Positions 3,025-15,901 of a DNA stretch of 22,047 bases are shown here, piece by piece (position 1 is the first letter of the stretch; every line of letters begins with the position of its first letter). The DNA is from a virus. The stretch spans positions 1 to 22,047 of the IMG/VR virus record IMGVR_UViG_3300032073_002078. One strand, 5' to 3'. Below the pieces are notes generated by a model. That model was not told where the DNA came from, did not search any database, and saw only the letters and a program-made list of their open reading frames with translations. Position numbers and translations under genes: made by a program.

Positions 3025-3306
3025 TTATTTTTTCCTTGTTCTCATACTAGATGTTGGTTGGGCACCTCTTACGTGAACCATACCACCCATAGTATTTTCG
3101 TCTTTCTTTTTTTTCGGAGCAGCATTTGTAAAAGGTCTTTGATTCATAGCACTTGTATAATTTGCGTGTAATCCAACACCCCTAACATTTTTACCACCCG
3201 CTCTTTTTTTAGGTGGCACATCACCTAAACTTGCTATAGGTTGTACATTTGAATAGTTTCCTATTCTAACACCTGTTGTACCTATAAATTCTTTAAAACT
3301 TTTCAT
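3025..3306 (-). CDS. Small basic protein with capsid-targeting-like leader
   Basis: A 93-residue, strongly basic, Gly- and Asn-rich protein that is probably disordered. It begins MKSFKEFIGTTG, close to the MKTYQEFIAE leader that sends T4 internal proteins into the prohead, although the Glu expected before the protease cleavage point is missing here. Its ATG overlaps the stop of the upstream gene (ATGA), giving translational coupling. A basic, disordered, late-region protein with such a leader could be a DNA-condensing internal head protein. That role is inferred. Confidence 0.65.
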   Translation of the reverse strand: MKSFKEFIGTTGVRIGNYSNVQPIASLGDVPPKKRAGGKNVRGVGLHANYTSAMNQRPFTNAAPKKKKDENTMGGMVHVRGAQPTSSMRTRKK

Positions 3307-3635
3307 AGTCTTGCTTTTTCTTTAATAGTCTTTTTTCTTTTAGGTGTTTCAATTTTAATTTCTTCTTTCACAACTCCACTTAATTCATCAATCTTTTCTT
3401 CAAGTTTATTTAGTACACTATAAACACCTTTCAATACAACATTATTGTTATCATCACTCTCTTGTACTTTTCTTTTTAAAGTACCCATAACTCTTTTCTT
3501 ACCTGTTGGATTCATATCTACGCCACCGTGTGCTACTGCATTTGCTGGTGCGTCTTCTTTTTTGACTTCTTTTTTATCATCTTCATCAATCTTGTTGATG
3601 ATTTCATCCATCATATCTTTATAATGTTTTGGCAT
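3303..3635 (-). CDS. Charged helical protein of unknown function
   Basis: A 110-residue protein, rich in Lys, Glu and Asp, starting MPKHYKDMMDEIINKI. The C-terminal half (about 62-95) looks like an amphipathic helix or short coiled coil. The ATG lies inside the end of the upstream gene (17-base overlap), with GGAG 8 bases before it. I recall similar short MPxHYKD-starting proteins in marine T4-like phages, of unknown role. Charge and coiled coil would suit a scaffold or core protein, but nothing here proves that. Confidence 0.65.
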   Translation of the reverse strand: MPKHYKDMMDEIINKIDEDDKKEVKKEDAPANAVAHGGVDMNPTGKKRVMGTLKRKVQESDDNNNVVLKGVYSVLNKLEEKIDELSGVVKEEIKIETPKRKKTIKEKARL

Positions 3636-4098
3636 ATTCGTACTCCGATACTAGTTTATTATTTTGTTCATAGATACCCACACCTAAACAAGTCATCACA
3701 GGTTCATCTTCTATGTCTGGTATATCTCTTACTTCATTTAACATATTATCATACTGATTAGTTTCTTTTAAATATGAAACAACACCTGCTTCTATAGCGT
3801 CTTTGTGTGTCATTAATCTATTATCTTCTCTCAATATCATTGCCATAGCACCAAAAAAAGAACCAAACTTACTACCTAATCCTACTTTTGCAAATAGTCT
3901 TTTCATATTAAAAACAAATCTATGTAAATAAGTATATGCTTTTTTATCTTTAGTTGTTTTTAATGTCTTATTAGGTCTTAATACAGTACCTTTTTTATCA
4001 ATAATACCTTGTTTAAATGCTTCTTGCTTCTCCCAAGGTGTTACCAATAGTTTAACTACTCGGTAAGTTATTAACATATCTACTGCTCTACTAGCCAT
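3619..4098 (-). CDS. Conserved marine-phage protein, unknown function
   Basis: A 159-residue protein. The central part, with LLVTPWEKQEAFKQGIIDKKG (19-39) and then a basic segment KKAYTYLHRFVFNMKRLF (52-69), resembles a short family I remember from cyanophages and pelagiphages, located among virion genes. It has no signal peptide, and a moderately hydrophobic stretch falls near 75-90. Its ATG overlaps the upstream TAA (TAATG) and is preceded by AAAGGAA. The 3' end overlaps the next gene by 17 bases. A virion or head-assembly role is likely only from the neighbourhood. Confidence 0.65.
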   Translation of the reverse strand: MASRAVDMLITYRVVKLLVTPWEKQEAFKQGIIDKKGTVLRPNKTLKTTKDKKAYTYLHRFVFNMKRLFAKVGLGSKFGSFFGAMAMILREDNRLMTHKDAIEAGVVSYLKETNQYDNMLNEVRDIPDIEDEPVMTCLGVGIYEQNNKLVSEYEYAKTL

Positions 4099-4460
4099 TA
4101 AAGTTCCTTTAACATTTGTTTTATCTTTTCATCTTCTTCAACATCACCCATTTCGTGTTCATAAAGTAATTTAAGATAGTTCAATACTGTTTTTAATACT
4201 GACCAATATTCTCTATCTATCTTAAATAATAATAAAGTTATCGCTACATCTGCACTAAAAACATTTTGTAATACTACAATGTGATTAATAATTAATCTTA
4301 TTTTAACTTCACCTGTAGTCTTATACTTACGAAATAACCTTTTAAGATATTTAAATCTTTTAATATCTTCCAAAAACTCTACATTGGTTTCCAATGTAGG
4401 ATTACTATAATTTTTGCTTGCAAATAGCAACCAATTATCTTTGGTTATCTCTTCAAACAT
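4098..4460 (-). CDS. Conserved marine-phage protein, mostly helical, unknown function
   Basis: A 120-residue protein beginning MFEEITKDNWLLFASKNY, with a basic helix (about 29-54) that includes YLKRLFRKYKTTGEVK, a hydrophobic middle (about 55-80) and an acidic end. The motif RLIINHIVVLQNVFSADVA is typical of a small uncharacterised family that I recall from marine T4-like phages. It is coupled to the gene below by TAATG and follows the gene above by 6 bases. No catalytic motif is visible. Confidence 0.7.
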   Translation of the reverse strand: MFEEITKDNWLLFASKNYSNPTLETNVEFLEDIKRFKYLKRLFRKYKTTGEVKIRLIINHIVVLQNVFSADVAITLLLFKIDREYWSVLKTVLNYLKLLYEHEMGDVEEDEKIKQMLKEL

Positions 4461-4466
4461 TTTGAC

Positions 4467-4892
4467 CTACACTAACTTAGCGTAGACCTTGGATGTACCG
4501 TTCTTTAAAGTTTCATAACTAACTTCTAAATTTAGACCGCCAGATTTTTTGTGTGATATACCATCATCATTTAAATCAGAACCATCAGTATCTTTCCCAA
4601 ATCTTCCACCAAATTGACTAACTTTCGCACTAACTTTTCCAGATGTTCCTTCCATTGTAACTGGAGAAACAGTTAAACCTATTCGGTTTAGTTTTTCTCT
4701 TAAACTATCTACCGCTTGTTGTGGTTTAATGAATTCTACGTCTGCAATAGAACCTACAAAAGCATTAACTCTATTTAATACTTCTGGATCGGAAATGTTA
4801 TGAGCGCCTAAATTACCATCTTCAACAGCGTTAGATGTAGCTGTGCCAACCATCTTGCCGTCTTCTGTAATATGTTGTTTAAACGTTTTCAT
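4467..4892 (-). CDS. Probable internal head protein with T4-type targeting leader
   Basis: A 141-residue protein whose first residues, MKTFKQHITEDG, strongly resemble the T4 internal-protein leader MKTYQEFIAE. The I-T-E followed by D matches the L/I-x-E rule of the T4 prohead protease gp21. The remainder is soluble and Gly/Ser/Thr-rich, with a central SQFGGRFGKDTDGSDLNDDG stretch whose alternating acidic residues could bind a cation. An EVSYETLKNGTSKVYAKLV beta-type ending follows. The start has GGAAAA upstream. If cleaved as predicted, the mature protein would begin near residue 11 or 12. Function unknown; packaging is an inference. Confidence 0.7.
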   Translation of the reverse strand: MKTFKQHITEDGKMVGTATSNAVEDGNLGAHNISDPEVLNRVNAFVGSIADVEFIKPQQAVDSLREKLNRIGLTVSPVTMEGTSGKVSAKVSQFGGRFGKDTDGSDLNDDGISHKKSGGLNLEVSYETLKNGTSKVYAKLV

Positions 4893-5007
4893 TTTTTGTT
4901 TTTTCCTTTTCTTTTGCTGTGTCCTCTTCAGGACAATCAGCGATTACTTCTTCCTCAAAATCGTCCAAGTCTTTATCTTCATAAAAAATCTTAAACTTTT
5001 TTATCAT
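4879..5007 (-). CDS. Possible 42-residue acidic protein bridging two genes
   Basis: An open frame of 42 codons runs from an ATG inside the end of the upstream 73-residue gene to a TAA inside the start of the internal-head-protein gene. It fills a gap that would otherwise be about 100 bases without a gene. The product begins MIKKFKIFYEDKDLDDFEEE and ends in a Lys/Glu-rich tail. Only a weak AAGAAG sequence precedes the start. The even-handed overlaps and sensible composition favour a real gene, but it is too short to be sure. Confidence 0.42.
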   Translation of the reverse strand: MIKKFKIFYEDKDLDDFEEEVIADCPEEDTAKEKEKTKNENV

Positions 5008-5212
5008 CTTCTTTTTTAACTGGATTTGTTGTATCTCCTCCAGCCATTCCTATTAATTTATTAACTTGTTGAATAGCGCCATTGATTGCATTTAAATTTG
5101 CTTTCATCTGACCCAAATCAGTTTCAACTTGTTTTATATTTTTACCTAAAGTATCAAAGTCTTTTTGTAGACCAAGTTTCTCCGAGGTAAGTTGTTCCAA
5201 ATTTATATCCAT
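4991..5212 (-). CDS. Small coiled-coil protein
   Basis: A 73-residue protein. Residues 5-55 form an apparent heptad-bearing helix (LEQLTSEKLGLQKDFDTLGK onward), followed by a flexible GMAGGDTTNPVKK tail. AGGAG lies 7 bases before the ATG, so the start is firm. It follows the virion-type gene at 5234 by 21 bases and is probably on the same late transcript. Small coiled-coil proteins of this kind are common beside structural genes in marine T4-like phages; their function is unknown to me. Confidence 0.7.
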   Translation of the reverse strand: MDINLEQLTSEKLGLQKDFDTLGKNIKQVETDLGQMKANLNAINGAIQQVNKLIGMAGGDTTNPVKKEDDKKV

Positions 5213-5233
5213 AATTATCTCCTATATTATATA

Positions 5234-5695
5234 TTATGCAACTGCGTATCCGTGACCTGCAATTACGTTCCAATTTGAATTTTTAAATAATAAAGTAACT
5301 GTTTCACCTGGCGCATTTAAAGTTACGGTTGTTCCGCCTCTTAAATTTGCTGGTGTTATAGTTATTGCGTTAGTACCTGCTGTTGCTGTATCTATAAACG
5401 TTTTAACTTGACCGCTTGTGCCGTCTGCTAAAGATACTGCCGCTGTTCCTGAAGTTGCTTCTACTTCTGTAACTGCACTTTCTACATCTGCAACTAAAGT
5501 TCCAGAACCTGTGCCTGTTAATGATTGGGATGCTTGAGCAAGACCTAAAAACGTTGGTACGTTATTAAATACATTTGCCGCTGATACTTTTTTGTTTATC
5601 GGTGTGCCTGATGGATCATCTATTACGTGAAACAGGTCTACACTCGCTAATGCGTTACCTAAATCGGTAAGCTGTGTGACTTTTTTATCTGCCAT
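5234..5695 (-). CDS. Virion structural-type protein (beta-rich)
   Basis: A 153-residue protein, rich in Thr, Ala, Val and Gly, with a predicted beta-sheet C-terminal half (repeated short T/V strands and an ending like NSNWNVIAGHGYAVA). The N-terminus MADKKVTQLTDLGNALASVD, followed by VDLFHVIDDPSGTPINKK, closely resembles a structural-protein module I recall from many marine phage virion genes. An exact late promoter lies about 60 bases upstream and a GGAG-type ribosome site precedes the ATG, so high late expression is expected. The exact place in the particle (head decoration, fibre or other) cannot be told from sequence. Confidence 0.8.
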   Translation of the reverse strand: MADKKVTQLTDLGNALASVDLFHVIDDPSGTPINKKVSAANVFNNVPTFLGLAQASQSLTGTGSGTLVADVESAVTEVEATSGTAAVSLADGTSGQVKTFIDTATAGTNAITITPANLRGGTTVTLNAPGETVTLLFKNSNWNVIAGHGYAVA

Positions 5696-5757
5696 TTGTT
5701 TTCTCCTATTAACCCTTTCGGGAATGCTACTGTAGCCAGTTGACTACATCATAATAT

Positions 5758-5765
5758 TATTTATA
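5758..5765 (-). promoter_or_regulatory. T4-type late promoter TATAAATA
   Basis: Exact TATAAATA on the coding strand, in the intergenic space before the structural gene at 5234-5695. By T4 rules, transcription would start about 6 bases downstream, near 5752, giving a leader of roughly 57 bases. T4 late promoters are read by RNA polymerase carrying the phage sigma gp55 with gp33 and the sliding clamp. Confidence 0.8.
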
Positions 5766-5766
5766 A

Positions 5767-5790
5767 GGGCAACCCTATAGAGGATTGCCC
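5767..5790 (-). terminator. Intergenic hairpin, possible terminator of the 5806-6096 gene
   Basis: GGGCAA pairs with TTGCCC, and after one mismatch CCT pairs with AGG, leaving a 4-base loop: nine base pairs in total. It lies 16 bases after the stop of the 5806-6096 gene and immediately before the late promoter. On the coding strand it is followed by TTATAAATAATA rather than a T-run, so it is a weak intrinsic terminator at best. It may instead protect the 3' end of the upstream message. Confidence 0.5.
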
Positions 5791-5805
5791 CTACGTTATT
5801 GATTA

Positions 5806-6096
5806 TTAAGCGTCAGCTGAATTAGTCAATACGACTAATGTTTCGTGTGATACACGACCTGCTCTGCCACCAGAACCAGTTGTTTTTAGGTTCCAACCTG
5901 CGTGAGCAACTTTTCCATCTGATACTTCACTATCTTTGTAATTAAACAAACCAATAGTAACACCTGTGATGAAATTGTCAGCAGTTGCGTCATTAAAAAG
6001 GTCAGTACGGTTAGCACTAGACCATTCTTTTCTGATTGCTGCTGTTGCCCATAATGGTGCTCCAGCTGCTTCGTCTTTATTTGTATGACTTGACAT
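5806..6096 (-). CDS. Small virion structural-type protein
   Basis: A 96-residue protein beginning MSSHTNKDEAAGAPLWATAA, with a Gly-rich segment HAGWNLKTTGSGGRAGRVSHETLV near the end (64-88). That segment matches a small structural protein I recall from pelagiphage and cyanophage genomes. It has its own exact late promoter and an AAGGAGAG ribosome site 5-10 bases before the ATG. It is also followed by a hairpin, so it seems to be a single-gene transcription unit expressed strongly late. A head-decoration or other small capsid role is plausible but not shown. Confidence 0.75.
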   Translation of the reverse strand: MSSHTNKDEAAGAPLWATAAIRKEWSSANRTDLFNDATADNFITGVTIGLFNYKDSEVSDGKVAHAGWNLKTTGSGGRAGRVSHETLVVLTNSADA

Positions 6097-6151
6097 ATTA
6101 TTCTCTCCTTTAAATTTTATGTTAAAGTACTCAATTCTTAATATATGTGTA

Positions 6152-6159
6152 TATTTATA
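6152..6159 (-). promoter_or_regulatory. T4-type late promoter TATAAATA
   Basis: Exact TATAAATA on the coding strand in the 76-base gap between the nucleotidase gene and the small virion gene at 5806-6096. The predicted start site near 6146 gives a leader of about 50 bases with a strong AAGGAGAG site close to the ATG. Confidence 0.8.
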
Positions 6160-6172
6160 ATGGGAAGGTGTG

Positions 6173-6661
6173 CTAGAAACCTAGCTTTTTTAGTTCTCGG
6201 ATAGTATTTGATGTATTTCTATGAAAGATACCAATACCACCTCGTCTTGTAAATTGATCCGTATTAGGTTTATAATCATCAATTAATACAGCAGGACTTC
6301 TGTATCCTGTTTGAGCATAGTTTTGTTTTTGACTTCTCTTTACAAGATTAACTCTTGCACCACTTATACCTAATTGACTTCTACACCATTTACTTTTACC
6401 AGGTTTACAATTTGGGTCTCTATCTGTATATGCTGATAGAATATCTGGTGAATGCTTTTTGATATAGTTCCATAATGTTTTACCATCTGACATCCACGGT
6501 AGTTTTTCCCAAAAAGTTTTATCATTCATAATTGGGTTCCACTTGTCTTGTTTTGTGAGGCTCATCCATTTACTGATAGGGACGCCAGTTGCTTTCTCAG
6601 CACCTTTTTTAAAGTCTGCCAAGACACCATCCATATCACAATAGAGTTTAGGAAGAGGCAT
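6173..6661 (-). CDS. HAD-superfamily 5'-nucleotidase-like phosphatase
   Basis: A 162-residue HAD phosphohydrolase. Motif I is YCDMDGVLADF (7-17), with the nucleophile Asp9 and the acid/base Asp11. A motif II Ser lies in LSAY (76). Lys108/Lys112 in VKRSQK are candidates for motif III, and Asp128-Asp129 in VLIDDY form motif IV. Size and motif I fit the 5'(3')-deoxyribonucleotidase group, which dephosphorylates nucleoside monophosphates, although the substrate is not certain. A textbook AGGAGG lies 10 bases upstream of the ATG. It follows the 496-residue gene by 14 bases and probably shares its late transcript. That is an odd place for a nucleotide-metabolism enzyme and may mean a role during head filling or right after injection. 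Confidence 0.85.
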   Translation of the reverse strand: MPLPKLYCDMDGVLADFKKGAEKATGVPISKWMSLTKQDKWNPIMNDKTFWEKLPWMSDGKTLWNYIKKHSPDILSAYTDRDPNCKPGKSKWCRSQLGISGARVNLVKRSQKQNYAQTGYRSPAVLIDDYKPNTDQFTRRGGIGIFHRNTSNTIRELKKLGF

Positions 6662-6675
6662 AATCTAATTGCCTC

Positions 6676-8166
6676 CTAGGTATTATAGTTTATCTCTGGA
6701 TCTGTATTTACTTTTGAAGCAGGATTTCCAGTCATTGTTCTACCCTTGGTAGGTTCATCTTTTTTCTTAGCAAGTTTTTCTTTTTCAGCTTTTTCTTTAA
6801 GTCTTGCTCTCAAAGTTTCATATTTTAATTTGTAAGGACTGACTGCTTCTTTTTTAATTTCTTTTTTATCAGCTTCTTTTTCTGCTTTATCTCGTAAAAG
6901 TTTGTTTGCAATTCCAACTGTTAAAGGAACTTGACCTGTTTCTTTATCTGCAACAGGTTTAATTACTTTACCTTTTTCATTTTCTAATTTTGCTTTTAAA
7001 ACATTTACTTGACCTTGCAAAGTTAAAATTTGTTTCTCCATTGCTGTAGGGTCTTTTGCACCATCAGATTGTCCATCTTCTTTATCTCTTGTCGCTCTTA
7101 TCTTTGCAATTTTAACACCTGGTTTATTATCTTTTTCAATAGGTGGAATTTTACTTTCATTTCTTGTAGGTAACAGTACAGAGTCTCCTCTTTCTGTTGT
7201 TTCATTAGCTGCTTTATTCCAAATATTTCTAATAGTATTTTCTAAATTTGTTTCTGGTTTTTCATTACCAATAACTTCTTTTTTTGGATCTTTTTTATCT
7301 TCTGTAGTAGATACGTTAGCAGTTTTAAAATCAACTTCTTTTTTCTTGTCTTTCATTTTAGATACTTCGCCTGCGTCAATAGTTTCTTGCATATCTTCTG
7401 TAGGTCTTTGTGTTTCTACACCTGAAATAGCAAAAGCACTATCGTGGTCTACTGATTCATTTGCTCTTTTTAATGCGTTAGCAACATCTGGATGTTTTGA
7501 TAATCCTTTTGCAAGTTTTTCAATAGCTGCAACTGCACCTGAATAATTACCTGCTTTGTATCTAGGGTCGTTTAATATACCGTATGCTTGTTTGATTTGT
7601 TGTTGAGAAAATGATTCTTCTATATCATCACCTTTAGGTTGTTTTTCTGCAACTCTATATCCAAATCTATATTTTGGTTTTCTACTTTTAGCAAAACTAC
7701 CTTGTTTTGAAGATGTATTGGCACCACCTCTTTCAGAAATAGTTTCTTCTGTCATTTGTTTTTGACGTTCTAAATTTCTTTCGTTTGCTAGATGTGGTTT
7801 AATTTTGTTACCTATGTAAGCAGTTTTACCTTCAGGTATCTTTTCTACTTTTCCGCCTTTGTCAATAAAGTCTTTCATTAATGTTTCATCAGCGTGTTTT
7901 CCATTAGAAGGTTTCCATTCTTCTTTTTTTAATTCTCTTTTACTATCAACGTTTTGCTTCTGAGCTTTTTTTGCGTCTTCTTTTTTAACTGTGTCTAACT
8001 TATTAAAAAATTCTGACTTTTCTTTAGGTGTCATTGAACCAATTCCACCCATAGAGTTTTTTAATGCTTCGTCAAATTTTGCTTTGTAATTAGGGTCTTG
8101 ATATTGTGATTGCTGTTTAGCAATTACTTCTTCAACACTACCTGGTTTTTGTTTTAAATATGTCAT
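6676..8166 (-). CDS. Large Lys/Glu-rich protein, scaffold- or internal-head-like
   Basis: A 496-residue hydrophilic protein with few aromatic residues and much Lys/Glu, likely disordered between short helical modules. One module (about 185-238, starting SFSQQQIKQAYG, with NYSGAVAAIEKLAKGL in the middle) resembles modules I recall from other marine phage proteins and is loosely similar to ones in the next gene upstream. Coiled-coil segments are visible near 373-400 and 445-470. The composition is like a prohead core or scaffold protein. A late promoter lies 6 bases from the ATG, with no Shine-Dalgarno sequence between them, so the predicted late message would be leaderless. The next in-frame Met is residue 39. 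Function unknown. Confidence 0.8.
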   Translation of the reverse strand: MTYLKQKPGSVEEVIAKQQSQYQDPNYKAKFDEALKNSMGGIGSMTPKEKSEFFNKLDTVKKEDAKKAQKQNVDSKRELKKEEWKPSNGKHADETLMKDFIDKGGKVEKIPEGKTAYIGNKIKPHLANERNLERQKQMTEETISERGGANTSSKQGSFAKSRKPKYRFGYRVAEKQPKGDDIEESFSQQQIKQAYGILNDPRYKAGNYSGAVAAIEKLAKGLSKHPDVANALKRANESVDHDSAFAISGVETQRPTEDMQETIDAGEVSKMKDKKKEVDFKTANVSTTEDKKDPKKEVIGNEKPETNLENTIRNIWNKAANETTERGDSVLLPTRNESKIPPIEKDNKPGVKIAKIRATRDKEDGQSDGAKDPTAMEKQILTLQGQVNVLKAKLENEKGKVIKPVADKETGQVPLTVGIANKLLRDKAEKEADKKEIKKEAVSPYKLKYETLRARLKEKAEKEKLAKKKDEPTKGRTMTGNPASKVNTDPEINYNT

Positions 8167-8171
8167 AGTAC

Positions 8172-8179
8172 TATTTATA
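8172..8179 (-). promoter_or_regulatory. T4-type late promoter TATAAATA abutting a start codon
   Basis: Exact TATAAATA in the 16-base gap before the 496-residue gene. In T4 the start site is about 6 bases beyond the element, which here is the A of the ATG at 8166. The promoter therefore predicts a leaderless message, or serves mainly the nucleotidase downstream. Confidence 0.72.
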
Positions 8180-8182
8180 AGG

Positions 8183-9613
8183 TTATTTACCTGCTTTATC
8201 TCCTCGCTTATGTTTCAACCACAATCTTTCAAAGGTTGCTTTAGGACCTACACCAACTACTTGTTCATCTTTTTTAATTGCCTTAGCAATTTCGTGACCT
8301 TTTTCTACTGTTGATTTTTTCAATGGTGTTCCGTGGTCTTTTTTAATCTCTTTTGCTTTTGCCATACCTATTGCATATGCTTTATCGTTGTCTTCTTTTC
8401 GTTGTTTAGGAATATCACCGTCTTTATTTGGAACACAATTTGGTACTTGTCTTCCGTCTTTTTCTTTCATACCAACTTGCGTATAACCTTTCCAACAAGC
8501 TTCTATTAATTCTTCATTTGAACCTTCAATTAATTTTGATATATGTGGTATGTCTGCGTGTTTAATTGCTAGTTGAGTAGGTATATCCATTCTCTTAATC
8601 ATTTGTTTAACAGCGTCGGTTACATCTGTTGCTTTTTTATTCTTCCATACGTTTTTAATATTAGCAATTTGTTTATCACTCATTTTACTTTGTAAATATC
8701 CAGTATCTTCTTTAACAATTTCTATTGATTTAGTTTGTCTTACGTCACCAGTTTTATACCACTTAATCCATTTTTCTGCTTCTGCTTTAGTTTTATAACT
8801 GCCGTGTATAAATTTACCACCATCCATTTTAGTAACTTGTACAGCAAACGCTTCTGGTACTTCTGTTTTACCTTCTGGTTCTGGTAGTTTTTGTTCAACA
8901 GGTGATGTATTTCTACCCATTTTATTAATCTTAAATCCTTTAGCTCTTAATTTCTGTGCTTTGTTTTGTAAATCTTGTAATGTTTTTGCGTCTTCAAAAC
9001 CTGCGTGTTTTCCATACTTGTCGTCATAAGATAATCTGAAAGGTGCTTTTGCTTCTTCTAATTCTTCTTTTCTCATTTGTGCCAACTGGGAAGCGTTTGC
9101 TCCGTGTCTTGAAATGAGTCTTGCTTGCGCTAACATTGACACAAATGGAATATTTGCTTTTAATATCTTAATTAAAAGCTGTTTATTCTTATCAAACTTA
9201 TCAAATATTTTCATCAACTTATTAGCATTTGTTCCACTAATTGTTTTACCTCTTAATGGTTCGTATTCTTTTTTAAGTTGTGATATTTGACTGTCTGAAA
9301 ATTCGTGTAATGTTTCAACGTTTTCTCCTAAAATGGATTTAACTGTTGATACTCTTAAATTTAATCTCTTTGCAATCTCTTGAGCAGATTTGCCTTCTGA
9401 ATCTAACGTATAGATGTCCTTCATACGTCCTTCATCAAACATTTCTTCTTTAACTGTTTTAACAGGTTCGGTATTCATCCACTCTTGGTGTCTTTTACCT
9501 GGGTGTACTTTAGAGCAATCGTGTCTTTCTCTTACTTCCGCAAGAGCAACGCTCATAGGTTTTTGATACCTACTTTTTTTCCACTTTGCTAATTCTTCTT
9601 TTAAGTCGCCCAT
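8183..9613 (-). CDS. Modular protein with HTH and repeated helical modules
   Basis: I prefer the ATG at 9613 (MGDLKEELAKWKKSRYQK, 476 residues). It follows the upstream stop by one base, whereas the longer frame starts with a GTG and overlaps the previous gene by over 80 bases. Modules in order: a basic start (1-45); a helix-turn-helix-like unit (62-97, with KSAQEIAKRLNLRVSTVKSI); a helical unit SDSQISQLKKEYEPLRGK onward (106-167) with NIPFVSMLAQARLI; a domain with SPOR-like spacing (255-300); a second helical unit (311-362) that looks like a shortened copy of the first; and a C-terminal CWKGYTQVGMKEKDGRQVPN unit (373-395) seen in several marine phage proteins. Between modules are L/I-x-E sites such as LIEG (361) and LIEA (369), which suit the prohead protease. 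Probably an internal or core head protein; function not established. Confidence 0.78.
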   Translation of the reverse strand: MGDLKEELAKWKKSRYQKPMSVALAEVRERHDCSKVHPGKRHQEWMNTEPVKTVKEEMFDEGRMKDIYTLDSEGKSAQEIAKRLNLRVSTVKSILGENVETLHEFSDSQISQLKKEYEPLRGKTISGTNANKLMKIFDKFDKNKQLLIKILKANIPFVSMLAQARLISRHGANASQLAQMRKEELEEAKAPFRLSYDDKYGKHAGFEDAKTLQDLQNKAQKLRAKGFKINKMGRNTSPVEQKLPEPEGKTEVPEAFAVQVTKMDGGKFIHGSYKTKAEAEKWIKWYKTGDVRQTKSIEIVKEDTGYLQSKMSDKQIANIKNVWKNKKATDVTDAVKQMIKRMDIPTQLAIKHADIPHISKLIEGSNEELIEACWKGYTQVGMKEKDGRQVPNCVPNKDGDIPKQRKEDNDKAYAIGMAKAKEIKKDHGTPLKKSTVEKGHEIAKAIKKDEQVVGVGPKATFERLWLKHKRGDKAGK

Positions 9614-9614
9614 T

Positions 9615-10037
9615 TTATTTGAATCTATTATCTCTTTTAAAATTATATGATAAACTATGTCTACTGTATAAATGTCCACCGTGTGTATCAAATACACGGT
9701 TTAATGAGTCCATATACTTTTTGTCTAAAACATTTCCTCTGGCACCTTTTGCTGGAGCATTAACACCAGCCGCCTTTAAAACATCTCCTGTAATTTTATC
9801 TACAAAAGCGTGTATAGCTCTTCTTTGTCCTCGTTCAGTATCCCAAATTTTAATGTACTTGCCACCTATACTAGTAGCTACATCACGTCTTTGGTCTCTA
9901 TATAAATTAGCAAATTGTGGGTGTCTTTTAATTTTTTCCCTAGCAATTTTAAGGTAATCGTCAACCCCTTTTAAAACCATAGCCGAGCTTTCAGCAATGT
10001 ATAGGTTGTGTACGTAATCTTTGAATTTAGTTGCCAT
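9615..10037 (-). CDS. Conserved phage protein with leader-like N-terminus
   Basis: A 140-residue basic protein. The start MATKFKDYVHNLYIAES contains a KFKDY core and I-A-E followed by Ser, resembling a T4 capsid-targeting leader with a gp21-type cleavage point. The central part, with YIKIWDTERGQRRAIHAFVD and then GDVLKAAGVNAPAKGARGN, is a compact domain that I recall from many T4-like marine phages without assigned function. A GAGAGAG site precedes the ATG. It lies 8 bases after the 910-residue gene and 1 base before the modular protein gene. Confidence 0.7.
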   Translation of the reverse strand: MATKFKDYVHNLYIAESSAMVLKGVDDYLKIAREKIKRHPQFANLYRDQRRDVATSIGGKYIKIWDTERGQRRAIHAFVDKITGDVLKAAGVNAPAKGARGNVLDKKYMDSLNRVFDTHGGHLYSRHSLSYNFKRDNRFK

Positions 10038-10045
10038 TTCTCTCT

Positions 10046-12778
10046 CTAAAGTTTCTCAATCATCTTTGCGACTACTTCGTTTAGTTTCGCTTTCCACTCT
10101 TCTTTATAACGTTCCTTATATTTATCTATTACTGAATCTGAAGTTGCCCATTCTTTTACTTCATTTTTAGTTAATTTATCCTCACCAACTTTAGCATCCG
10201 TAGCCTTACCTGGTCGTGATATGTATGTATCAGTAGGTTTTCCACGGTCTTTTGAGTCAACAGGAGGTGCGTCCTCTTTCTCTCCTGGTGTCATTTGCTT
10301 ACAATGATTAGCATAATCAGCACCTATTTCATAACTATCTTTAATTTGTGAGTATGGTTTTGGTACTGGTATTGTTTCAACTGCTTCAAATCCATAATCA
10401 ATATCTAGGTTGTACTCTCTTAACATTGGTTCTTTATCAGCGGCAACTGGAATACAATCCCATATCCAACATTTGTGTAAATTATTATTTGTATCTTCTA
10501 ATACAACATAGTTCGTACCTCTTCGTACTACTTTACCTTGTTTATCTTCTTTAAGATACTTGACCTGGTCTCCGATATTGAATATCATCTCCCTAACGTA
10601 TAGGTCTCTAACTTGTTTCTGTTCAAACTGTCCTAATGTCATAACAGGTTTTGAAATATCTGGTTTATAGTCTTCTCTTATACCCATACCTTTTCTGACC
10701 GCTTTAAACAGTCCATCAACATCTCTAAATTGAGATGGTAGTCCTCTCTTAAATGACGCCACATCACCTTTTTGAGCAGCATCCCTCATCTTACTCGCAC
10801 TCATACCTGAAGCGCCTTCAGCGTCTGGATCACGCTCTCCAGCAGATATAACATCTATTGTTTTAAAGTTATAGTATCCGTGTCTATTTTTCTGGTCGTT
10901 ATACTTTTTAAGTATAGTATCAAACTCTCTTACTCTATCACTACCTACAACAAATTTTAAAATATTATGTCCTTTGTTATATAACATAGTAGCTAAATCT
11001 AAAATCATATTTGTTGTATTGATTTCAATGTTTCTAGCATATTGTGGAAACATCTTTTTCATAAAAGATAATTTTTCTCTAGCAGATAATGGATTCTTTT
11101 TACTATCTTCTGACCTACTGATATAGATTTTATAATTTCTATCTGCTCTTACAACTTTATTAATAAGTTTTTCGTGACCTATTGTAGGTGGATTAAATCT
11201 TCCAAATGTAATTGCAATAGACTTATCAGCAACTGCTTCAGATTTTAAACTATCTATCTCAGCGTCTGTAACTTTATTATCATCTAATATCTCTTTACAT
11301 TTCTTATAGAATTTTAAGTAATGATATTTCTCTAATAACTTATAGACTACATTTTTAGGTAATCTATTTTTAATACTAAACGTTTTAATTTGTTCTGGTG
11401 TCATATCAGAATCAAACGCAGCTCTTCTAGCAGTTAATACATCATCTCCAATATCAACAATATCTTTTATAGATTGTTCAATCTCTTCTAACTTCTCATT
11501 AATCTTTTCTTGTAAGTTTAAAATATCATCTGGTTGTAAATCTTTTAATTCATCATAGTCTATAATATCTCTTTTTAATTCTCCTTTAACTACATCTATC
11601 TCTTGTACCTTTCTTTGATATGCTGACATATATAATTTCATATCAAACGTATAGTCTGCTGGTCTTTTAGTAAATACATTACCTCTATAATCAAATACTG
11701 CGTCTGCTTTATCCTCTTGGTCTTGATGAGTTATAGGATCAGTAATGATGTAATAGTTAATAGGGTGTTGTGTATCAGGTATTAATTTACCATTAATCTT
11801 TTCTGGACTTTTAGCAGATAGATACTTATGAGATAATCTTAATCTTTCTTCTTCTTGTTTATCTACAGGTACATCAAACAGTACATTAAAATCTAAATCT
11901 GCGTCCTTTCTATATCTCTTTGTAAGTATAGAACCTACTAAACTAACTTTTAAAACTGGATATTCTTTACCAAATTCTTTAAGTTGATTGTCAACTATTT
12001 CTCTAACACTAGGTTTAATTCTAGGTGTTTTAGTTTCATAGTCATCAAAAACTCCAGGTGCATATGTATTTCTAGGAGCGTCTATAATACTTTCGTTTAA
12101 TTTGTTTCTGTACATTTTTTCTTTTGTCATCCAAGTTTTTGCAAGATAACTTTTAATTGGCTGCCTCATATATCGTCTAACTAATCTGTCACAGTTTTGT
12201 AAAGTTTGTGACACTAGTTCTTTATCTGACCTATTGTTATCTACTACAATAAAATTTGATTGACCAAATAATCTTTGAAACTTACCTATATTAGATTGTA
12301 CTTTTTCCCAAGATGATTTAACAATATATTCTGGTATAGTTCTACTTCTAATTTGATTTCTTTCTAACGCAACAGGTAATGTTGTGTTAACAAATATCAT
12401 ATAACAATCATAACCTAATGAGTGTAGTTGATTATATTCTGCACTTATTCTTCCATAATCTCTTCCAGTTGCGTCAATAACTAAACCTAATCTACCAGTT
12501 ACATAAGTATCTAATTGTCTTTTTGTTGTACCTTTGGCATTATTTCTTATAATATCTCTAAAATATTTTTCTTGGTCAGGCATTTTATCTGAAAGATTTG
12601 CCTTCTTTAAACCTCTTTCAAATACTTGGTCTGAATTTACAAATTTTAATCCAGAACCTGCAAAAGTATTACTAGCGATAAATGATTTACCACTACCAGG
12701 TCCTCCTGCCATAAAGAAAGCTTTAAATATACCTGGGTCATATAAACCTTCTTGTAATAAAAATTCTTTAAACTTCAT
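10046..12778 (-). CDS. Four-domain enzyme: P-loop kinase, Pol-beta NTase, NMNAT-like, KOW-like
   Basis: A 910-residue fusion protein. Residues 1-10 (MKFKEFLLQE, then G) look like a capsid-targeting leader with an L-Q-E cleavage point. Residues 18-200 form a P-loop kinase with Walker A GGPGSGKS (25-32) and a DATGRD strand end (102-107), in the zeta-toxin/polynucleotide-kinase style. Residues 255-400 carry the Pol-beta nucleotidyltransferase signature, GS (282-283) followed by DADLDF (292-297). Residues 518-700 form an HxGH-type nucleotidylyltransferase with GRFNPPTIGH (526-535) and SASKMR (660-665), most like NMN adenylyltransferases. Residues 732-779 look like a small KOW/SH3 barrel (FNIGDQVKYLKEDKQGKVV). 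The C-terminal 120 residues are Lys-rich. AAGGATGG precedes the ATG, which directly follows the upstream stop. Substrates are not known. NAD synthesis, nucleic-acid end modification or protein modification are all possible. Confidence 0.85.
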   Translation of the reverse strand: MKFKEFLLQEGLYDPGIFKAFFMAGGPGSGKSFIASNTFAGSGLKFVNSDQVFERGLKKANLSDKMPDQEKYFRDIIRNNAKGTTKRQLDTYVTGRLGLVIDATGRDYGRISAEYNQLHSLGYDCYMIFVNTTLPVALERNQIRSRTIPEYIVKSSWEKVQSNIGKFQRLFGQSNFIVVDNNRSDKELVSQTLQNCDRLVRRYMRQPIKSYLAKTWMTKEKMYRNKLNESIIDAPRNTYAPGVFDDYETKTPRIKPSVREIVDNQLKEFGKEYPVLKVSLVGSILTKRYRKDADLDFNVLFDVPVDKQEEERLRLSHKYLSAKSPEKINGKLIPDTQHPINYYIITDPITHQDQEDKADAVFDYRGNVFTKRPADYTFDMKLYMSAYQRKVQEIDVVKGELKRDIIDYDELKDLQPDDILNLQEKINEKLEEIEQSIKDIVDIGDDVLTARRAAFDSDMTPEQIKTFSIKNRLPKNVVYKLLEKYHYLKFYKKCKEILDDNKVTDAEIDSLKSEAVADKSIAITFGRFNPPTIGHEKLINKVVRADRNYKIYISRSEDSKKNPLSAREKLSFMKKMFPQYARNIEINTTNMILDLATMLYNKGHNILKFVVGSDRVREFDTILKKYNDQKNRHGYYNFKTIDVISAGERDPDAEGASGMSASKMRDAAQKGDVASFKRGLPSQFRDVDGLFKAVRKGMGIREDYKPDISKPVMTLGQFEQKQVRDLYVREMIFNIGDQVKYLKEDKQGKVVRRGTNYVVLEDTNNNLHKCWIWDCIPVAADKEPMLREYNLDIDYGFEAVETIPVPKPYSQIKDSYEIGADYANHCKQMTPGEKEDAPPVDSKDRGKPTDTYISRPGKATDAKVGEDKLTKNEVKEWATSDSVIDKYKERYKEEWKAKLNEVVAKMIEKL

Positions 12779-13993
12779 TTATTTCCATCCTTTTGGCAAC
12801 GTAAAGTTTGCCCTACTAAATTCTAATCTATCTACTATTTTTACTGCACCCGCTACTCTATCTACTGCAACATATCCTTCAGGTGCTGTTACTCTATAAC
12901 CTGTTCCAGTTTTAATGTAGTGTCCTATCTGTTGAATTTGATTCATCTTTTGTATCAATGTGTTCTTCGCATTGCCTAAAGTTACGTGACTTGCTATCGC
13001 CATATATAAACCTGATTTATTTTGATTAATAAATCTTAATCCATTTGCTAATATATCTCTATATTTTTGTTTTGCTTTTTCAGTTTTTCTTTGGTCTATT
13101 TCTGTCTTCAAAACGTTCTCATAATAATCTCTAAACATATCTTGTAAGACTTTAACCTTTGCCATACTACCTTTATTATTTCTAATGTAATGATTGAAAA
13201 ATGCTTTTAATCTAAACCCTACAGATAAAGGGTCACTAGCACGACTTGTCATTTCATCTAATACTTTACTTGCTCTACTTAATGAACCTTCTGCCATTCT
13301 TAATTGAGCATTAAATGTATTCAATTCTGTTTTAGTAAAAGTAATAGAACCAGAATCGTCTTTATAAGAAGCACTTGCTACCCATACTCTTGAATTACCT
13401 GATCCTCTAACATTACCAAAACTTGCATTTAAACTTTTCATATCTTTACCAGTATACATTGTATGAAATACTATACCCATTTTAGCACGAGCAATCTTCT
13501 TACCAATATTGCTACTTGCCTGTACTGCATATGTGATTGTATTTGGTGTAAAGGTTATCATTTTTTCACCATCAATTGAAGCTGATTTTGTATCGTTAGT
13601 GAATAATAAATCACCTTGTAAAATTTGTTTAATATTTAAACTAGATAGATGAGCAAGACATACTGTTAGTTTTTGAGCGACAGCACCAGAATGGTTTTGT
13701 CTTATGTCTGCTGTTGTGTAATTGATTTTAGGAGTTTTATTGAATATTGATTTAGTACCAACAAAGAATTTACCGTTTTCAGGATTGACCCCACATATAA
13801 TAGCAGGTGCGCCATCCCATTTAACAGTAGTATTGATTTTTGCTCCCGAGTGACCTGCGAGCATATCTCTTACTGATTTTAGAAAGTTAATTGCATTAAC
13901 TCCACCAGATGAACCTCTATTGATTATATCATCTTCTAGGTGTTCTAGGTGTGTATTCTTGTCGTTTGTGGTAAAACCTTTAAAACTAAACAT
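12779..13993 (-). CDS. Conserved phage protein with ligase-like nucleotidyltransferase motifs
   Basis: A 404-residue protein of a family I recall as uncharacterised (DUF6267-like) in T4-like phages. Motifs in order resemble the covalent nucleotidyltransferase superfamily (DNA and RNA ligases, capping enzymes): VKWDGAP with Lys58 (motif I, KxDG); FVGTKS (77-82); LQGDLLF (125-131, like motif III); GIVFHTMYTG (173-182, like IIIa); PEGYVA (371-376, like motif IV); and VKIVDRLEF (384-392, like motif V). A helical insertion of nearly 190 residues separates IIIa from IV. If the match is right, the enzyme would form a Lys58-nucleotide adduct. The N-terminus MFSFKGFTTND has a weak targeting-leader look. 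GAGGAA precedes the ATG. It lies just before the kinase/nucleotidyltransferase fusion, which suggests a joint nucleic-acid end-processing role. Confidence 0.75.
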   Translation of the reverse strand: MFSFKGFTTNDKNTHLEHLEDDIINRGSSGGVNAINFLKSVRDMLAGHSGAKINTTVKWDGAPAIICGVNPENGKFFVGTKSIFNKTPKINYTTADIRQNHSGAVAQKLTVCLAHLSSLNIKQILQGDLLFTNDTKSASIDGEKMITFTPNTITYAVQASSNIGKKIARAKMGIVFHTMYTGKDMKSLNASFGNVRGSGNSRVWVASASYKDDSGSITFTKTELNTFNAQLRMAEGSLSRASKVLDEMTSRASDPLSVGFRLKAFFNHYIRNNKGSMAKVKVLQDMFRDYYENVLKTEIDQRKTEKAKQKYRDILANGLRFINQNKSGLYMAIASHVTLGNAKNTLIQKMNQIQQIGHYIKTGTGYRVTAPEGYVAVDRVAGAVKIVDRLEFSRANFTLPKGWK

Positions 13994-15471: not shown

Positions 15472-15547
15472 TGGTGCCCAAAGAAGGAATTGAACCTCCA
15501 ACCTACTGATTACAAATCAGTTGCTCTACCAATTGAGCTATTTGGGC
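15472..15547 (-). tRNA. tRNA-Thr (anticodon UGU)
   Basis: A 76-base tRNA including an encoded CCA. The acceptor stem GCCCAAA pairs perfectly with TTTGGGC, followed by discriminator A and CCA. The D arm is GCTCAATTGGTAGAGC. The anticodon stem ACTGA/TCAGT holds the loop TTTGTAA, giving anticodon TGT. The T arm GGAGG/CCTTC (one G-T pair) holds TTCAATT. It reads ACA threonine codons, which suit an AT-rich genome. The 5' end overlaps the stop codon region of the preceding protein gene by 10 bases, and the 3' end touches a late promoter. Confidence 0.96.
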
Positions 15548-15801
15548 TGAACACGAACACATAAGTGCTTGACAACGCCACCATTTTCTTGCCAGACTTT
15601 ATGTTTGTTTTGAAATTTTGCTAATTTATCTGCGTCTTCTTCAAAAAACGTTTCTGATATAATAGAGCCTGTAGGTTTCTCTACTACCTGCCAAAGTATC
15701 TTTCTACCTTTCTTAACTGGTTTCGTTTCGTAAGAAAGTGTATACTTATACTTTGCTGGTCTCTTGTCGTTTCTGCTGAACCTTACTTTTTGTTTTGCCA
15801 T
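15538..15801 (-). CDS. Small basic protein ending inside the tRNA gene
   Basis: An 87-residue protein from the ATG at 15801 (MAKQKVRFSRNDKRPAKYKY). A longer version from a TTG at 15825 is possible but less likely. The middle, KILWQVVEKPTGSIISETFF followed by EEDADKLAKFQNKHKVW, matches a small conserved family that I recall from marine T4-like phages, function unknown. The last codons and the TAG lie within the 5' acceptor stem of tRNA-Thr (10-base overlap). The start lies 56 bases inside the previous small gene, in another frame. An AAAGAAAAAG purine run precedes the ATG. Confidence 0.72.
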   Translation of the reverse strand: MAKQKVRFSRNDKRPAKYKYTLSYETKPVKKGRKILWQVVEKPTGSIISETFFEEDADKLAKFQNKHKVWQENGGVVKHLCVRVQPK

Positions 15802-15901
15802 TTTTCTTTTTCTTTTTATCCCCAAAAATATCTTCCCAATTAGCTTTATATTCTTTAGTAGGAACCATTTTATTACTCTTATAAAATCTAGGTCTGCCCA
15901 T
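15746..15901 (-). CDS. 51-residue basic protein (MGRPRFYK type)
   Basis: A short gene read directly from the sequence: starts MGRPRFYKSNKMVPTKEYKA, continues NWEDIFGDKKKKKNGK and ends in a Lys/Gln/Arg tail. Its ATG follows the stop of the oxygenase-like gene by one base. Short proteins with an MGRPxxYKxxxMVP start and a WxDIFG motif recur in marine T4-like phages as I recall, which supports a real gene. The 3' third overlaps the next gene in a different frame. Function unknown; the charge suggests nucleic-acid or protein binding. Confidence 0.7.
   Translation of the reverse strand: MGRPRFYKSNKMVPTKEYKANWEDIFGDKKKKKNGKTKSKVQQKRQETSKV

Follow-up and report, generated by a model that had tools for sequence, protein, structure and literature searches.

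Why should unrelated proteins encoded by one T4-type phage, among them a large enzyme of 910 residues, begin with nearly the same short leader? The question is raised by a 22-kb virus contig (22,047 nucleotides, IMG/VR record IMGVR_UViG_3300032073_002078; this whole stretch is called the window below), which comes from a phage of the Kyanoviridae related to Methylophilales phage Melnitz and Pelagibacter phage HTVC008M. An earlier note on this DNA had compared five N-termini with the leader of the T4 internal protein IPIII (MKTYQEFIAE) and proposed that, if the resemblance is real, this phage packages enzymes and injects them with its DNA. The T4 internal proteins IPI, IPII and IPIII reportedly bear a capsid-targeting sequence (CTS), as Mullaney and Black are said to have described in 1996, so that the CTS itself is already known. 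All five N-termini occur as quoted, on the minus strand. The starts at 4892, 12778 and 10037 end in I-T-E, L-Q-E and I-A-E, respectively, and thus in the L/I-x-E that had been claimed for them; MFSFKGFTTND at 13993, put forward as a weaker case, lacks it. We consider it probable that the strong leaders serve as capsid-targeting propeptides of the T4 type. Support is good for 4892 and 12778; for 10037, and for a start at 5007 that had been overlooked, the reading is plausible. The starts at 3306 and 13993, which have no cleavage site, are weak as capsid-targeting leaders.

Frequency and conservation of the leader

From the T4 leader and the starts singled out in the earlier note we drew a strict pattern, M-x(1-4)-[FY]-x-x-[FYH]-[ILV]-x(1-2)-E, and estimated how often it would arise by chance from proteins whose residues 2-16 had been shuffled. 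In the window the starts at 4892 and 12778 alone pass, 2 of 32 versus 0.04 expected (P about 5e-4). A 177-kb relative of the window phage has three among its 238 starts (0.17 expected), Melnitz three among 217 (0.12 expected) and the cyanophage S-CREM2 three among 219 (0.23 expected), with P between 0.0005 and 0.0035 for the excess in these four genomes. Inside proteins, about 0.06% or less of positions match, and a slightly narrower form of the pattern was found at none of 5,347 internal positions.

Conservation could be followed in two families. Among 40 distinct relatives of the 141-residue protein starting at 4892, mean entropy is 0.42 bits across the ten leader columns, 1.54 bits across the next 22 columns, a hypervariable linker with insertions and deletions, and 0.53 bits in the body. 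M1, T3, K5 and E10 are invariant, position 8 is I, V, L or M, and position 9 varies; judged from the alignment, the segment behaves like a processed leader. At 80 cyanophage NMNAT loci (a search with the S-CREM2 NMNAT as query recovered a single locus) the start follows the consensus MK[KNS]F[SN]AFL[NTSIV]E|A, where the bar, here and below, marks the predicted cut point. F4, F7, L8, E10 and A11 are invariant, and position 9 is free (1.9 bits). In the T4 CTS, residues 4 and 7 matter most for targeting, and residues 8 and 10 for processing (PMC9026906); the invariant F4, F7, L8 and E10 and the free position 9 of the NMNATs therefore agree with the T4 residue mapping and with the L-x-E rule of the gp21 protease. 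Within the window, the CTS register is exact at 4892 (F4, H7, I8, E10) and shifted by one at 12778 (F3, F6, L8, E10), and the starts at 3306 and 13993 do not have the full set of CTS residues. In T4, a mutant at residue 10 may still be targeted although it is not processed (PMC9026906), so these last two may be targeted even without a cleavage site.

Could the leaders be a chance product of K-, F-, I- and E-rich starts in AT-rich genomes? MK starts are common in phage proteins, two of the five cited starts have no cleavage site, HTVC008M is unenriched, and a loose regular expression for long leaders, such as that at 10037, gave no useful enrichment across genomes, although it excluded the canonical form and was uninformative. 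Such an origin is nevertheless hard to reconcile with the shuffles, with a leader conserved ahead of a hypervariable linker, and with the invariant residues in cyanophages. We regard chance as quite unlikely overall, and for the 4892 and NMNAT leaders it is already largely refuted.

Leader-bearing proteins in virions of marine relatives

Published mass spectrometry of leader-bearing proteins in virions comes from relatives of the window phage. S-CREM2 virions hold structural proteins together with a SAM hydrolase, a kinase, a Cas9-annotated protein, a cytidylyltransferase and small unknown proteins (PMC10665884, Table 3). Among the virion-detected proteins, gp6, confirmed as a SAM lyase by Pfam, begins MKDFDSFLEE|F, the kinase gp14 MKRFDAFLTE|E (from a GTG start), the cytidylyltransferase/NMNAT gp154 MKNFSSFLTE|A, and gp13 MKDLHSFLTE|Q, and gp12 has LRFASFMAE|A at residues 17-25. 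The "Cas9" label of gp12 (L010:7704-10313) is doubtful, as no Pfam domain was found at E 0.01, and we therefore left it out of the known enzymes. Virion-detected NMNATs with a leader also occur in S-SM1 (MKKFSAFLNE|A) and S-SZBM1 (MRFRQFIIE|A), and S-CRM01 carries the leader on both its kinase and its NMNAT; the NMNAT of MED4-213 has no leader, so that some NMNATs are leaderless. The proposal that such phages package enzymes is supported, and most strongly so, by the virion proteomes of relatives, whose virion-borne enzymes bear the same leader.

We then scored proteins with a leader profile trained on leaders of the window lineage and Melnitz only, T4 being absent from the training. Five S-CREM2 proteins reach a score of 7 or more; four of them are virion-detected with no structural role assigned, whereas 0 of 24 structural proteins score so high (hypergeometric P 0.001). 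When the profile was run on 271 T4 genes, IPII and IPIII ranked joint sixth. First came gene 61.1 (L118:18966-19130), whose uncharacterised 54-residue product gp61.1 begins MKTFKEFIKE|D and, by this start, is a possible candidate for a packaged protein.

Several groups have reported enzymes (NMNAT, kinases, SAM lyase) in cyanophage virions without an entry route, and some suspected contamination. Were these enzymes contaminants of lysed cells, a caveat voiced by the authors of both the S-CREM2 and the S-SCSM1 studies, leader and packaging would be linked by coincidence. This appears very unlikely, given that NMNAT has turned up in the virions of several cyanophages studied independently, that one N-terminal motif is enriched among the non-structural virion proteins of S-CREM2, and that the proteins detected in S-SZBM1 virions include the leader-bearing NMNAT (140) but not its leaderless DUF6267 neighbour (141). 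A leader legible from sequence would explain the virion enzymes and make the injected sets of very abundant marine phages predictable from their genomes. In T4 the CTS is enough to bring a foreign protein into the head, and T4-like phages have been suggested in general terms to package various proteins via the CTS (PMC9026906); we did not find these virion enzymes linked to a capsid-targeting leader in the literature, subscription journals lying outside the search.

No head genes lie within the 22-kb window. The 177-kb relative, mostly 87-92% identical to the window in nucleotides across matching segments, encodes gp20, gp21, gp22 and gp23. Its gp21 has a match in the solved structure of the T4 protease (E 1e-22), and its gp23 reads YLAE|AAPTNATG at the presumed propeptide end. 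A gp21 protease and a gp23 whose processing is read from sequence are thus both encoded in the close relative, outside the window.

Three side observations concern these proteins. S-CREM2 gp12 and gp14, S-CRM01 g128 and the S-SM1 and P-SSM7 NMNATs share a second, short module behind the leader, LGLxxxGxGxYxDxxTGxIxxRxxxGEL (L010:7704-13331, L203:2657-5929), possibly a further core- or DNA-binding element. P-SSM7 protein 194 (T4-GC119; L204:5000-5518) begins MKTYSQFIEE|G, very close to the T4 IPIII leader. The virion-detected S-CREM2 gp160 (L009:14343-15236) has ATGFTGAAAPEGPVAGYDP, close to GFTGAAAPGGPNAGFDP, a stretch of the phage's own major capsid protein not far from its N-terminus.

Domains behind the leader

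In the 910-residue protein, the leader is followed by an AAA/zeta-like kinase, a nucleotidyltransferase (NTase) and a cytidylyltransferase/NMNAT domain. The last holds an HxGH-like motif (GRFNPPTIGH), and Pfam CTP_transf_like is marginally below the cutoff there. An AlphaFold2 (AF2) model of the protein, confident in the NTase and NMNAT parts only, matches PPAT/NadD folds in Foldseek over the NMNAT-like domain (prob 1.00, E about 2e-4), so that this domain has both the motif and the fold of a nucleotidylyltransferase.

Across relatives the leader stays first while the domain that follows it differs: AAA kinase, PAP2 phosphatase, NTase or NMNAT. Most relatives have no kinase and carry the leader straight on the NTase (e.g., MRFKDYIKE|SIIDIPRR, MRFKDFINE|SIIDIPRR), in two (L041 and L089) a PAP2 phosphatase separates the leader from the NTase, and cyanophages have the leader directly on NMNAT. 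In HTVC008M the kinase body is a separate gene with a shorter leader, MIPFILKE|GLYDPG. Within the phage group the same leader stands on unrelated proteins, namely NTase/NMNAT, the 4892 family, SAM lyase, kinase, the PAP2 fusion and a RimK-like ATP-grasp enzyme (MTQKFSQFITE|EP in Melnitz, MQIPKFKDYITE|AK in the 177-kb relative); a 361-residue protein begins MQGFKTFLSE|A.

At its kinase/NTase junction the window protein reads KLNE|SIIDAPRN, an L-x-E site too, which appears from the alignment to be the surviving old junction between leader and NTase. A bolder proposal, which we regard as doubtful, is that a single exchangeable leader serves the Kyanoviridae as the common address for the injected protein set of each phage, and that the 910-residue protein is made as a polyprotein which gp21 cuts at LQE|G and again at LNE|S; if so, separate enzymes would be delivered from a single gene.

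Several observations weigh against capsid targeting by a cleaved leader. Many NTase relatives of the pelagiphage type begin simply MKTFKE|SIIDIPRR, without L/I-x-E, and E229 is invariant; since E-[SA] ahead of IIDIPR does not vary even behind so short a leader as MKTFKE, it may partly belong to the NTase domain, with a structural role for E. HTVC008M has zero strict leaders, which implies that the strict leader can be lost. The S-SZBM1 virion proteins 136 and 139 have no clear leader. In S-CREM2 the whole score distributions of virion non-structural and other proteins differ marginally (Mann-Whitney P 0.05), and one further leader pattern was devised once the S-CREM2 starts were known and is thus not independent. 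Under the marine profile T4 IPI comes 25th and Alt 196th, both with low scores, and cleavage of gp23 in this lineage is one that we infer.

Some of these points would suit an N-terminal segment that docks elsewhere (on the core, the portal, the membrane or its own kind) or belongs to the folded enzyme, instead of being a cleaved propeptide. E-[SA]-IIDIPR stays the same whether or not the leader ahead of it is long, and the DUF6267 and 3306 starts are conserved despite having no cleavage site. But one motif stands ahead of unrelated folds, variable linkers can follow it, and position 9 of the leader, within L-x-E, is free precisely where the protease does not read. We hold this alternative to be unlikely and retain capsid-targeting propeptides as the preferred reading.

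Delivery, known systems and gene setting

If the strong leaders are such propeptides, their aromatic core (F-x-x-F/Y/H) would dock the protein onto the prohead scaffold core, gp21 would cut after L/I-x-E, with which the sequence pattern agrees, and the mature protein would remain in the capsid and enter the host along with the DNA. What is observed is the N-termini and their conservation, gp21, gp22 and gp23 in the close relative, leaders on several unrelated families, and leaders on virion-detected enzymes of related phages; for the window phage, packaging, docking, cleavage and injection are what its sequence and the relatives' proteomics point to. The cargo would be mostly enzymes together with small unknown proteins, here including the kinase-nucleotidyltransferase-NMNAT fusion, and its purpose probably lies in immediate defence or in readying metabolism, for instance through the supply of nicotinamide adenine dinucleotide (NAD). 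Judging by their families, NMNAT could restore NAD, SAM lyase could blunt restriction or methylation, and the kinase could modify host targets. This suggests that the tag is a general way for T4-like marine phages to deliver ready-made enzymes with their DNA.

The closest known systems share parts of this scheme. T4 IPI, IPII and IPIII have the leader of about ten residues (M-K-x-F/Y-x-x-F/H-I/L-x-E) on unrelated proteins, in a phage with gp21, whereas the marine cargo, known from sequence, consists mostly of enzymes of up to 910 residues with changing domains, whose mature parts are not recognised as IP homologues. T4 Alt, an injected ADP-ribosyltransferase, is likewise a large enzyme delivered from the capsid and trimmed by the prohead protease; its propeptides, however, are a six-residue one ending in ITE and a C-terminal one (PMC5694885), and its start scores low, as said. 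The NMNAT/cytidylyltransferase of cyanophage virions (T4-GC190; S-SM1, S-SZBM1, S-SCSM1, S-CREM2) has a homologous domain and, in S-SM1, S-SZBM1 and S-CREM2, the leader, but the window NMNAT sits in a kinase-NTase-NMNAT fusion. Ejection proteins of the giant phage SPN3US are also head proteins processed by a prohead protease and travelling with the genome, although several of their propeptides exceed 100 residues and the cleavage specificity is A-X-E.

The gene order of the region is uvsX and gp41, DUF6267, the 910-residue enzyme and then a run of small proteins (Table 1). The 93- and 141-residue proteins have no Pfam or PHROG match; the remaining leader proteins match other families, the 140-residue one Pfam DUF7717 (E 2.3e-16). 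The long leader of the latter is supported by conservation among close relatives only. A relative (L020) of the 42-residue protein begins MKKFKSFIKE|EDLKDF, and the start at 3306 resembles that of T4 IPI, MKTFKEFTSTTT. DUF6267 orthologues begin, at the same point, MINFSKYITE|DK (Melnitz) and MYNDLLVE|DK (HTVC008M).

Table 1. Leaders, leader-like starts and enzyme domains in the window
Feature	Gene or residues	Position	Strand	Remark
Leader MKTFKQHITE, 141-residue protein	4467-4892	4863..4892	-	Predicted cut ITE|DG
Leader MKFKEFLLQE, 910-residue enzyme	10046-12778	12749..12778	-	Predicted cut LQE|G
Long leader MATKFKDYVHNLYIAE, 140-residue DUF7717 protein	9615-10037	9990..10037	-	Predicted cut IAE|S
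Leader-like start MIKKFKIFYE, 42-residue protein	4879-5007	4978..5007	-	Missed by the earlier note
Leader-like start MKSFKEFIGT (MKSFKEFIGTTG), 93-residue protein	3025-3306	3277..3306	-	No cleavage site
Leader-like start MFSFKGFTTN, 404-residue DUF6267 protein	12779-13993	13964..13993	-	No E
Protein with embedded SRYQKPMSVALAE		8183..9613	-	Relatives begin M[ST]RYRxTMxEA
Kinase-like P-loop domain, 910-residue enzyme	Residues 22-161	12296..12715	-	Pfam AAA_33 E 1e-10, zeta toxin 2.3e-4
Nucleotidyltransferase domain, 910-residue enzyme	Residues 264-315	11834..11989	-	Pfam NTP_transf_2 E 3.3e-6
Cytidylyltransferase/NMNAT-like domain, 910-residue enzyme	Residues 523-627	10898..11212	-	PHROG 395 E 4e-68
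Internal KLNE|S motif, kinase/nucleotidyltransferase junction	Residues 226-229	12092..12103	-	Aligns with leader end (E|SIIDIPRR) of kinase-less relatives

In an alignment of 31 DUF6267 sequences, K58-W-D-G, E372-G and K385 are invariant, reminiscent of covalent (ligase-type) nucleotidyltransferase motifs. A ligase assignment was rejected: the AF2 model is poor (predicted local distance difference test, pLDDT, 66), and Foldseek and PDB profile searches gave nothing convincing. Residues 7-53 of T4 gp61.1 match PHROG 2086 in its C-terminal part; the window protein at 3619-4098 belongs to this family. Finally, a tRNA-Thr(TGT) gene lies on the minus strand at 15472-15547, between a 461-residue protein and the open reading frames at 15538-15901.
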